From the NCBI GenBank assembly GCA_033344915.1, contig JAWPML010000001.1, positions 2,662,369 to 2,726,368 of the forward strand: a DNA stretch of 64,000 nt, given 5' to 3'. The notes beneath the pieces are model-generated. The model was given only the letters and a program-made list of their open reading frames with translations, did no database searches and was not told where the DNA came from. The DNA comes from Acidimicrobiales bacterium (lineage in GTDB: Bacteria > Actinomycetota > Acidimicrobiia > Acidimicrobiales > Aldehydirespiratoraceae). Both the position numbers and the translations under genes were made by a program. Below are positions 33,830 through 36,794 of this stretch, in pieces (position 1 is the first letter of the stretch; the number at the start of each line of letters is the position of its first letter).

Positions 33830-34111
33830 ATGACGTGTGAGCACTGTGAGTCGCGAAACACGTGTGCGTGCCCGGCCGGGCGGGAGGTGTGCTCGGTGGG
33901 AGGCGCATGTCCCTGCGGACCGGGATGCCCCTGCCCGACGCCCGAAGCGGAGCTCCCCGAGCCGAAGTGCCGCAGGTGCCCGGCGCCGGTGTTCTGCGGT
34001 CCCGGGGCATCCTCCTCGGCGCGGTGGTCTGGCTGGGCCTGTTCTTCCTGGTCTTCTGGTGGTGGGAGAAGACACCGCTCGTCTCCGTGGCGCTGCTGCT
34101 CTCGGTCCTGA
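33830..34111 (+). CDS. Possible small Cys-rich protein (metallothionein-like N-terminus), overlapping the next gene
   Basis: From ATG 33830 the first 56 residues contain 12 cysteines, arranged as CxxC, CxC, CxC, CxxxCxC and CxxC, interspersed with Gly and Pro: for example 'MTCEHCESRNTCAC', 'GGACPCGPGCPCP' and 'CRRCPAPVFC'. This looks like a metal-binding or metallothionein-type domain. After about residue 59 the frame overlaps the strongly supported membrane protein in another frame and is probably not meaningful. The candidate is either a small real gene ending at 34111, or the N-terminus of the membrane protein joined by a frameshift. I do not recognise a family. Confidence 0.35.
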   Translation: MTCEHCESRNTCACPAGREVCSVGGACPCGPGCPCPTPEAELPEPKCRRCPAPVFCGPGASSSARWSGWACSSWSSGGGRRHRSSPWRCCSRS

Positions 34112-35166
34112 TCCTCGTCTTCTGGATCGTCCTCATGCTCGGCTACTTCGGCCGCTGGGGGCGCCGGGCGGTCGTGATGATCAATGCCCCGCCCTGGCTG
34201 TGGTGGCTCTGGCTGCTGCTGGCACTCGCCCTCTTCGGCCTGGGTGTCGTCGCGCTCCTCGACGGCGGGGAGTCGCGTGCCGGTGTCGTGCTCGTGCTGC
34301 TGGCGGCGATCTTCGCGATCGGCGGGTGGGCGCGGATGCTCCCGATCCTCTACCGGATGCTGCCCCCCATCGTCATGGCTCCAATCGTGGCCGTGATCGT
34401 CGCGGGCGCGGTGCTCGGCGTGCTCGGTCTGCGGGCGGACGACGAGACGTTCGGCGCGATCGCCGCGCTCGTCGCGACCCTCTGGCTGGCGGTGATGGTG
34501 CTCGCACCCTGGCTGCTGCTCTGGCGACGAGGCGTGCGGCACCAGCGCGTGCCGACCGGCATCCCGATCCTGATGCTCCTTGCACCGATCGTGATCCTGG
34601 TCGTCGGCACGCTGATGTTGATCGCGAACGGCTACACCCGGGACAAGCCCGACGGTGAGCGCGCGACCGCGACGAACGAGCAGGGCACGACCGACGTCAC
34701 GAGCACGACGACCACGACCACAACCACGACCACGACCACGACCACGACGACCACCGAGGCGCCCGAGGACGCAAGCCCGCCTCAACAGCAACCCACCTAC
34801 CGAGTGGCGATGTCGGACGGCCGGATGTTTCCCATCTACCGGTTCGACGACGGCAACCAGCAGAGCCTCGGCATCGTGCTCCCCCGCCCCGAGGACGACT
34901 GTTGGCTGCTCCAGTACGACGAGGGAATCGCCGATCACGTGGGCACGTGCAGGTTGTCGTTCGTGAACGACGTGGAGCCCGTGCCGGCGTCGATCATCTT
35001 CGAGTCCGAAGATCGTGTCGTTGCGTTGCTGCAAGGCACGAACGTGGTCGTCTCGGACGCCCTGACGGCCCAGGGGTTCGCTTTCGACCTCGACGACGAG
35101 TTCTTCGTGGAGCTCGACGCCTCCGGCGACACGGTCGAGATCGACGGCGAAACGTTCCGGCGCTGA
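33907..35166 (+). CDS. Membrane protein with poly-Thr linker and C-terminal extracytoplasmic domain
   Basis: A 419-residue protein, unrecognised. It has about eight spans in the first 245 residues ('GILLGAVVWLGLFFLVFWWW', 'LVSVALLLSVLILVFWIVLML', 'WLWWLWLLLALALFGLGVVALL' and others), then a charged segment and a run of 17 threonines (codons 34705-34755), then a soluble domain of about 135 residues with 'DGRMFPIYRFDDGNQQSLG' and 'DDCWLLQYDEGIADHVGTCRLSFV' (two Cys that could pair). The linker resembles mucin-like Thr linkers of secreted actinobacterial proteins. The start at 33907 has GGGAGG only 3 nt upstream; in-frame codons at 33862 and 33967 are alternatives. It ends 16 nt before the selenoprotein gene. 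Confidence 0.7.
   Translation: MSLRTGMPLPDARSGAPRAEVPQVPGAGVLRSRGILLGAVVWLGLFFLVFWWWEKTPLVSVALLLSVLILVFWIVLMLGYFGRWGRRAVVMINAPPWLWWLWLLLALALFGLGVVALLDGGESRAGVVLVLLAAIFAIGGWARMLPILYRMLPPIVMAPIVAVIVAGAVLGVLGLRADDETFGAIAALVATLWLAVMVLAPWLLLWRRGVRHQRVPTGIPILMLLAPIVILVVGTLMLIANGYTRDKPDGERATATNEQGTTDVTSTTTTTTTTTTTTTTTTTEAPEDASPPQQQPTYRVAMSDGRMFPIYRFDDGNQQSLGIVLPRPEDDCWLLQYDEGIADHVGTCRLSFVNDVEPVPASIIFESEDRVVALLQGTNVVVSDALTAQGFAFDLDDEFFVELDASGDTVEIDGETFRR
34705..34755 (+). repeat. Poly-threonine microsatellite (ACGACC-type)
   Basis: Seventeen consecutive Thr codons, mostly alternating ACG and ACC, form an imperfect 6-bp microsatellite. It codes for the linker between the membrane and extracytoplasmic parts of the protein. 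Confidence 0.9.
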
Positions 35167-35170
35167 GCAG

Positions 35171-35176
35171 TAGGGT
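35171..35176 (+). promoter_or_regulatory. -10 box TAGGGT, leaderless start of the TlpA-like selenoprotein gene
   Basis: TAGGGT is followed by 6 nt and the ATG at 35183. It starts 5 nt after the stop of the upstream membrane protein, so the selenoprotein gene has its own promoter. Confidence 0.55.
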
Positions 35177-35182
35177 GCGCCC

Positions 35183-36259
35183 ATGATCCTCGAATCGCTC
35201 GCCGTCGACCCTGCAACGTTCGCCGACGCGACCGGCTGGGAGTCGAAACCGGAAGGTCTGTGCAAGGGCGATCAGTGTGTGCCCGCGCCCGAGGCCGTCA
35301 CCGCCGACGGCGGCCTCGACGTCACCGTCGTCGCCGATCGGCTCGGAATGGCGATCGTGGAGGACCCCGAGCACGGCCTCGTCGCGCTCGGTCCCGAGAG
35401 CGGCGGGCGGGCCCTCACCACCGCGACGGTGCCCGAACTGCCGTTCACCGACGCGGACGGCAACCCGTTCTCGCTCGGTTCGCTCCACGGCCGCAAGGTG
35501 CTGCTCGTCGCTTGGGCCTCGTGGTGAGGTTGTCGCCACAGCCTGCCCGGGTGGCAGGCACTCCACGCTGAACTCGAGCCCCGGGGCCTCTCCGTTGTCA
35601 CGGTCGCCCTCGACCTCGACCCCTCCAAGACCACCGAGTGGATCGCCGCGGCGGCCCCGACGCATCCGTCGCTGCTCGACCCGCACCACCTCGTCGACCA
35701 GCACCTCGGCATCAACAACGTGCCGATGGCCGTGTGGATCGACGAGACCGGCACCCTCGTGCGACCGCCCGAGTCGGCGTCGATCGAGCCGTCGCCGTTG
35801 CGCGACATGGAGATCACCGACGATCTGCCGGAGCGGATGCAGATGATGCTCGCCGAGGTGAAGAAGCTGCCCGACCTCGCCGAGGACTATCGCGCCGCGA
35901 TCGTCGACTGGGTCGAGAAGGGCGCCGACAGCCGCTTCGCAATGGCGCCCCACGAGGTGATCGACGCCTCGCAGCCCCGGCCGATCGAACACAGCCGCGC
36001 CGCCGCACTCTTCGAGCTCGGCTGCCACCTCCACGACACCGTCGGCAAGGACGCCGCCGTTCCGTTCTGGAAGCAGGCCCACGCCGCGAACCCGGAGAAC
36101 TGGACCTACAAGCGCCAGGCGTGGACCCTCGAGTCCACGCCGCCCGGCGAGGCGAGCGACATGGCCCAGGAGGTATCGGACACCTACGGCACCACCTGGC
36201 TCGACGACGTCATCGCCAACGGCGGCGGCGAGGCGTACGGCATCACCCCGGCGCTCTAG
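35183..36259 (+). CDS. TlpA/thioredoxin-like selenoprotein, Sec115 encoded by in-frame TGA (35525-35527)
   Basis: The frame from ATG 35183 is broken only by TGA at 35525-35527 and continues to 36259 (358 residues). Across it the protein reads '[29 protein letters not shown]', which is the strand and redox helix of a TlpA/ResA-like thioredoxin fold in which the nucleophilic Cys is replaced by Sec, with Cys117 two residues later. The region after it has 'LSVVTVALDLDPSK', 'HPSLLDPHHLVDQHLGINNVPMAVWIDETG' (cis-Pro loop VP) and a TPR-like C-terminus ('AHAANPENWTYKRQAW'). A perfect hairpin follows the TGA. Residues 27 and 32 are Cys in 'GLCKGDQC'. No signal peptide is seen, so it is probably cytosolic, reducing disulfides or peroxides. 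The conserved continuation argues against a pseudogene. Confidence 0.87.
35541..35559 (+). promoter_or_regulatory. Predicted bacterial SECIS hairpin for Sec115
   Basis: GCCTGCC (35541-35547) pairs perfectly with GGCAGGC (35553-35559) around the loop CGGGT. The loop starts 20 nt after the TGA and its second base is G. Geometry is close to that of the hairpin at 3036-3056, although the sequences are unrelated. Confidence 0.75.
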
Positions 36260-36278
36260 CCCGGCACGGCTGCAGACG

Positions 36279-36794
36279 TCAGTCGACGGTGACCTCGTCG
36301 AGCCGTCCGTTCCCCACGTCGTAGACGAAGCCCCGGATGTGGTCCTTGTGGGCGATGAACGGCGAGTTCAGGAGTCGCTGGATCGACTGCTTCGTGTCCG
36401 CGTAGGGGTCCGTGAACGCTTCCACCCGCCAGGGCGGACGGACCCCGATGTCGGACTCGATGTCCGCGGTGAATCCGTCCTCGGTCACTTTCTGCAGACC
36501 GCAGTCGGTGTGGTGCACGAGGATGATCTCGCGGGTGCCGAGCGCCCGCTGCGACAGCGTCAGCGAGCGGATGACGTCATCTGTCACGACCCCACCGGCG
36601 TTGCGGATCAGGTGGGCGTCGCCGCGGTCGAGACCGAGGATGGGGAACAACGGCATACGCGAGTCCATACAGGCCACGATCGCGACACGACGACCGGGTG
36701 ACACCGGGAGCCCACGGGGCTCGAACTCCGCAACCCATTCGGCGTTCCGGGCGAGGAAATGGTCGGCGCTCGGTGTGAAGTCGTCGTCGTGCAT
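36279..36794 (-). CDS. Beta-carbonic anhydrase
   Basis: A 171-residue beta-class carbonic anhydrase that interconverts CO2 and bicarbonate with zinc. Zinc ligands are Cys42 in 'IVACMDSRMPLF' (the C-x-D-x-R dyad with Asp44 and Arg46), and His95 and Cys98 in 'ILVHHTDCGL'. 'HLIRNAGGVVTDDVIRSLTLSQRALGTREI' is also conserved. Its length and sequence resemble the small mycobacterial enzyme Rv1284. Cytoplasmic. A minus-strand TAAAGC box lies 8 nt before the ATG. The frame extends upstream only as a shadow of the CoA transferase gene. It is divergent from that gene with 45 bp between starts. Confidence 0.93.
   Translation of the reverse strand: MHDDDFTPSADHFLARNAEWVAEFEPRGLPVSPGRRVAIVACMDSRMPLFPILGLDRGDAHLIRNAGGVVTDDVIRSLTLSQRALGTREIILVHHTDCGLQKVTEDGFTADIESDIGVRPPWRVEAFTDPYADTKQSIQRLLNSPFIAHKDHIRGFVYDVGNGRLDEVTVD

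Follow-up and report, generated by a model that had tools for sequence, protein, structure and literature searches.

Does the in-frame TGA in a TlpA/redoxin-like gene of the window (the whole 64,000-nucleotide stretch of Acidimicrobiales DNA analysed here) specify selenocysteine (Sec), and if so, what kind of protein does the gene encode? The frame opens at ATG 35183 and closes at TAG 36257-36259, with TGA 35525-35527 as its one interruption and 243 further codons beyond it; under the standard code (table 11) it stops at the TGA, and the gene falls into separate open frames. The nearest in-frame stop upstream of the ATG is only three codons away, and no promoter-like site was found in 35000-36500. 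The initial annotation had placed the TGA inside the motif WASW-U-GCR, and re-reading of the sequence confirms both motif and position: the active-site codons are TGA GGT TGT (35525-35533), giving U-G-C (U115, C117). Nearby, an upstream ORF (33862-35166; it encodes 434 residues, among them a long run of threonines, and its only two Pfam matches fall under cut-off) ends 16 nt before the start of the gene, and a carbonic-anhydrase family gene (Pro_CA, 2.4e-13; 36279-36794, minus strand) lies tail to tail with it.

Table 1. Features of the predicted selenoprotein gene, in window coordinates.
Feature	Position	Strand	Remarks
Predicted selenoprotein gene, NF041054 (WAxxUGC_long) member	35183..36259	+	358 residues with TGA read as Sec
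N-terminal domain, about residues 1-77	35183..35413	+	motif TGW..KPEG.C....CVP
Invariant C-X4-C pair, codons C27 to C32	35261..35278	+	each in 87/87 aligned proteins
Redoxin / AhpC-TSA (TlpA/ResA-like) domain, residues 82-193	35426..35761	+	Pfam PF08534 2.8e-13, structure matches
In-frame TGA, predicted Sec115	35525..35527	+	
C117 codon, likely resolving Cys of U-G-C	35531..35533	+	
Predicted bacterial SECIS hairpin	35541..35559	+	7 bp stem, loop CGGGT, 20 nt from UGA to loop
C-terminal helix pair, about residues 268-302	35984..36088	+	helices 268-286 and 289-302 in predicted model

The NCBIfam model NF041054.1 (“ResA-like WAxxUGC motif-containing protein,” an equivalog) matches the protein at 489.6 bits (cut-off 300; 5.8e-147), with residues 1-354 on model positions 1-350; in a genome search with this model the gene scores 482.9 bits. 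In each of five pairings of the window gene with a relative, dN falls far short of dS both before and after the TGA: against the closest relative among the best 80 of 566 homologous loci (L057, from an Acidimicrobiales MAG, 93% identity), dN/dS is 0.024/0.62 upstream and 0.035/0.47 downstream. Judged by the full-length match that spans it and by dN below dS on either side, the in-frame TGA is more than a chance interruption, and the earlier suggestion of about 240 coherent residues beyond it stands. One alternative is that the TGA is an ordinary stop, as the standard code would have it, in which case the gene makes a protein of 114 residues or is a pseudogene disrupted by a nonsense mutation. 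Such a product would end just ahead of the active site, dN remains well below dS beyond the TGA, and the TGA recurs at the same codon in 74 of 79 homologous loci (from the best 80 of 566) in several phyla; this reading is very improbable.

These homologues, from named genomes, are the best 80 of 566 confirmed loci, a set skewed to close relatives; one of the two search patterns spelled the motif with Cys, and is taken to favour Cys forms. Codon 115 is TGA in 74 and TGY in five of the 79 motif-keeping loci among the best 80 of 566. The one locus without the motif (L124, 432-1340) was left out of the motif counts: it is a close relative in which the redox-motif stretch is missing and the frame continues, reflecting either a real deletion or an assembly fault. 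Within the same 79 of the best 80 of 566, no homologous frame has a stop before the TGA/TGY codon and all remain open for at least 210 codons beyond it, the two shortest ending at contig ends. TGA loci in this best-80 set include Actinomycetota, Chloroflexota, Myxococcota and Binatota records; the five Cys-codon loci (three Frankia, one Verrucomicrobiaceae record and one Actinomycetota record) all keep the one-residue spacing. An alignment and tree of 87 rows combined 80 long forms (the window gene and 79 loci of the best 80 of 566) with seven short ones. The initial annotation had proposed looking for Cys at columns 115 and 117 in non-Sec forms: in these 87 rows, with the long loci so chosen, column 115 is TGA in 80 and a Cys codon in seven (two of the seven short rows have Cys, the others TGA), while C117, C27 and C32 are each present in 87/87. 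On the 87-row tree, Sec and Cys have been exchanged at least four times. A related redoxin (L046, genome G248) has U-T-C in place of U-G-C; its aligned part sets in only at the redoxin domain, the N-terminal C-X4-C stretch being absent from it.

Another possibility is a reassignment of TGA throughout the genome to some amino acid, Trp or Gly for instance. No support was found for this, and several observations speak against it: 36 of the 74 homologous TGA genes (best 80 of 566 loci) also terminate with TGA, as does the adjoining upstream ORF 33862-35166, and the matched stretches of selA and selB have no in-frame TGA, so the code does not look reassigned; moreover, orthologues carry Cys rather than Trp or Gly at column 115, and a tRNA-Sec with anticodon tca is present. 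Reassignment is even less credible than an ordinary stop. Sec decoding, in turn, finds its machinery in the host genome (one contig of 4,481,363 bases): selA (320.4 bits) and selB (275.7 bits, model positions 2-338 of 581), both over cut-off; selD (359.8 bits, one in-frame TGA); and tRNA-Sec (64 bits, anticodon UCA). The TGA of selD (L055, G000:C1:1225971-1226897) lies in HGAG-U-GCK and is accompanied by a hairpin of -10.9 kcal/mol, so selD is itself probably a selenoprotein.

Other TGA-containing frames occur in the host genome. A second, shorter UGC relative (L003, G000:C1:3024907-3025542, minus strand) has its TGA in WUGCR, scores 205.7 bits, under the NF041054 cut-off, and has the hairpin core CTGCC-CGGGT-GGCAG, which at -6.0 kcal/mol misses a limit of -7.5. 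In two TlpA/ResA-like loci, L006 (G000:C1:4271647-4272000) and L009 (4260195-4260566), TGA takes the first place of the active site (U-V-A-C and U-P-T-C). Two TlpA-like genes with an ordinary C-A-P-C (L004, L005) lie no more than about 13 kb from these loci; a simple rule found no hairpin at or below -7.5 kcal/mol for either L006 or L009.

Does the TGA form go with the capacity to make Sec in other genomes? NF041054 scores over its cut-off in 13 of 396 sampled genomes of the phylum. Eighteen TGA-form genomes, the U-T-C genome G248 among them, were chosen by eye from rows that score above about 80 bits and whose match takes in the motif; the motif was read in 17 of the genomes, G237, split over several frames, being taken from the search table. 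General TlpA rows with TGA under about 80 bits were left out (for example G242, 64.6 bits, which is absent from the selA list). A selA match is found in 17 of these 18 genomes against 236 of 396 overall (Fisher p 0.0011, ignoring relatedness); the exception, G036, has a TGA form of the short type in a 94% complete genome. No selA match was obtained for G166 or G374, the two genomes whose short form has Cys. A second test used 27 genomes chosen from the 80 named loci (best 80 of 566): selA matches occur in 21/21 TGA-form genomes, 19 over cut-off and two as fragments (77.4 and 26.9 bits) starting within 4 bases of a contig end, and in the remaining genome, that of L124. They also occur in two of the five Cys-form genomes, both Frankia, so that Cys forms are found where selA is present as well.

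Is there also an RNA signal for Sec insertion? The bacterial SECIS model given in Figure 2A of a 2026 review (PMC13188914, seen in part) has a loop of 3-9 nt with a G within its first two bases, a stem of 4-16 bp, a distance of 16-37 nt from the UGA and an energy of -7.5 kcal/mol or lower, and these constraints were coded for the present analysis. The perfect 7-bp hairpin that the initial annotation had noticed 13 nt past the TGA is indeed there (GCCTGCC-CGGGT-GGCAGGC, with a 5-nt loop), and the proposed search for a bacterial SECIS yields a fit to the constraints as coded: -12.7 kcal/mol at 20 nt, equalled by 4% of shuffles. Folding of 35520-35575 sets it beside a second hairpin that holds the UGA, and an Rfam search of 35480-35620 gave two matches, both below gathering score, and no named SECIS family. 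Support for the predicted SECIS is comparative, the 56-nt fold alone being only mildly unusual (z -1.75).

The comparison covered 80 genes (the window gene and 79 loci from the best 80 of 566; 75 TGA, 5 Cys), with a null in which downstream codons were swapped for synonymous codons of the same gene. A hairpin passing the model is present in 67 of the 75 TGA genes (21.9 expected), the other eight missing the -7.5 kcal/mol limit, and in none of the five Cys genes (0.5 expected). Because each gene was scored by its best hairpin wherever this lay within the permitted distances, a few genes owe their pass to a hairpin other than the shared one (for instance L121 and L123, at 28 nt). Folding energy over the whole segment shows no advantage over synonymous shuffles (mean z -0.08). 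Selection on the hairpin is visible codon by codon in the 75 TGA genes: codon +6 is CTG in 68 (24.0 expected), codon +7 is CCC in 71 (30.7 expected), and codon +8, in the loop, is GGG or GTG in 71 (GGG 45, 5.5 expected; GTG 26, 10.7 expected), whereas at other positions of these genes a final G is found in only 1044 of 3825 Gly/Val codons. TTG at +6 accompanies CAA at +10 in four loci (L060, L068, L069 and L090, of which L068 and L069 are near copies), so that both sides change synonymously and the stem is preserved. TTG is combined with CAG in two loci and CTG with CAA in one; four of five CAA codons thus go with TTG (Fisher p 6e-5, ignoring relatedness). For the seven stem pairs taken together, 481 of 525 cells are paired, against 470.1 in 2000 shuffles that ignore relatedness and never exceed 476; cells changed on both sides number five, against 0.97 in the same shuffles, which reach 4 at the highest. 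Only 33 of 75 genes form the outermost of the window's seven pairs, which leaves a shared stem of 6 bp or less. Part of the hairpin is dictated by the conserved residues LP[GV]WQ; a short Cys form (L045) keeps LPGWQ, and these residues are therefore not kept only for RNA reasons.

With all of this in view, the gene very probably encodes a selenoprotein of the known UGC (WAxxUGC, NF041054) family, with Sec predicted at residue 115. The NCBIfam match alone means that this kind of protein was already known: it is full-length, the UGC motif is the same, and no difference from the model was found that would set the window protein apart from other members. “Prx-like (UGC-containing)” is one of 51 families that a 2008 Global Ocean Sampling survey treats as previously described, and Table 2 of that survey gives for it 46 selenoproteins in 15 samples and 855 Cys homologues, which may cover a wider class (PMC2398784, available portion). 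The 2026 review, in the part seen, lists a “UGC-containing TlpA disulfide reductase family protein” with motif UGC (PMC13188914). Both share the motif and the redoxin class with NF041054, and are equated with it here by motif and class name only, since the text available from these sources gives no sequence. A literature search by the family name WAxxUGC found no paper, though the UGC group is in print; searches on actinobacterial TlpA selenoproteins found none, and on Acidimicrobiia selenoproteins nothing related.

The fold points the same way as the family name. Pfam places Redoxin at residues 82-193 (2.8e-13) and AhpC-TSA at 83-192 (9.3e-12; 45.4 bits, cut-off 26), the latter a broad model that also matches 20/20 members of a 20-member family alignment. 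In an AlphaFold2 model built from that alignment with Cys substituted for Sec (mean pLDDT 89.3), residues 79-245 match ResA (1st9_A) with Z 13.2, rmsd 2.6 and 18% identity over 136 aligned residues, and residues 77-245 match a DsbE-like protein (3gl3_A) with Z 14.5 and rmsd 2.1 over 139. The ResA/TlpA-like fold proposed at the outset is thus borne out for residues 77-245 of the predicted model, and the reading as a TlpA/redoxin-like selenoprotein with a U-G-C motif is supported by NF041054, Pfam, the Cys of non-Sec forms at column 115, the hairpin, the fold and the Sec machinery. TlpA/ResA thiol-disulfide oxidoreductases have a C-x-x-C active site, and TlpA and ResA carry a membrane anchor or export signal. 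The window protein shares their redoxin fold and differs from TlpA, ResA and DsbE in three respects. Its active site is U-x-C instead of C-x-x-C: the one-residue spacing, singled out early as unusual, is real, and is a family trait common to the Cys orthologues (CGC). It lacks a hydrophobic N-terminal segment: by a crude 19-residue hydropathy mean, none was found (highest value in the first 60 residues 1.02; above 1.6 in 2 of 87 family rows), which suggests a cytoplasmic location, and the protein is probably cytoplasmic. Finally, it has an extra N-terminal C-X4-C domain and a C-terminal helical region.

The N-terminal domain is modelled with a pLDDT of 86.7. Searched alone against the PDB it has no match at E <= 0.001 (26 at E <= 10); in Pfam nothing exceeds cut-off in the window protein (best 12.9 bits, cut-off 27), and no family appears in more than 2 of 33 members at E <= 1. 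This is no proof of a new fold. The C-terminal region looks helical, and TPR-like in relatives: Pfam TPR_2 matches 11 of 20 relatives roughly at the helix pair, with no TPR family listed by Pfam for the window protein itself. As for possible partners, flanking ORFs of 120 residues or more, taken from 80 loci (the window gene and 79 named loci of the best 80 of 566), were clustered. The largest of the 14 neighbour clusters listed covers 23 loci, those shown (the first 12 per cluster) all falling in the range L070-L110, Actinomycetota or bacterial records; no family-wide partner gene was seen among these clusters, from flanks of at most 4 kb, with some loci at contig ends and raw ORFs that include spurious ones.

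Assuming that Sec is inserted, which chemistry would it serve? The product would be a thiol-disulfide or a peroxide reductase. A role as a peroxidase (peroxiredoxin-like, with one Sec or of the U-x-C type) in place of disulfide reduction is possible, if on balance doubtful: AhpC-TSA and Redoxin both match, GSHPx matches weakly (5.2e-5, below its cut-off), and the 2008 survey calls its group “Prx-like” (PMC2398784, available portion), while the NCBIfam name is ResA-like and the top structural matches are of ResA/TlpA/DsbE types rather than peroxiredoxins, an alkyl hydroperoxide reductase and a peroxiredoxin fusion also being listed. Disulfide over peroxide chemistry is only somewhat favoured.

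A working model can be put together for the preferred reading, a UGC-family selenoprotein. At the UGA, the downstream hairpin would recruit SelB with Sec-tRNA(UCA) for insertion of Sec115, giving a product of three parts: N-terminal C-X4-C domain, ResA/TlpA-like redoxin domain and helical C-terminal region. By analogy with thioredoxin folds, U115 occupies the position of the attacking Cys and would most likely be the attacking residue; C117 could resolve the intermediate as a selenenylsulfide, in a ring that the one-residue spacing should strain. For comparison, a CGC disulfide was reported to have a redox potential of -167 mV, near that of protein disulfide isomerase, PDI (Woycechowsky and Raines 2003, as cited in the part of PMC4316792 seen); the spacing in those CXC/CGC mimics of PDI is alike, but they have two Cys, the first of which is here replaced by Sec. 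A reactive, easily opened selenenylsulfide would fit a reductase, an isomerase or a peroxidase; its reductant might then be a thiol system or the C27/C32 pair.

The N-terminal domain may reduce the active site, or may bind a partner or a metal. A more specific and rather speculative idea, unlikely as matters stand, is that it is a built-in reducing partner, forming a self-contained cytoplasmic selenium relay from C-X4-C to C117/U115; that layout is not described in the portions of the UGC literature examined.

The family, its Sec residue and its unusual spacing are already known, and the initial annotation was right on the identity of the gene. The additions made here are modest: codon-level evidence for the SECIS hairpin, switching between Sec and Cys, and the invariant N-terminal Cys pair. 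For an Acidimicrobiia-type actinobacterium, the gene is a clean and readily checked example of predicted Sec decoding, the comparative evidence for its SECIS reaching down to synonymous co-variation. For a family to which the sections of the literature examined assign no substrate, the invariant N-terminal C-X4-C pair offers a specific, testable hypothesis.
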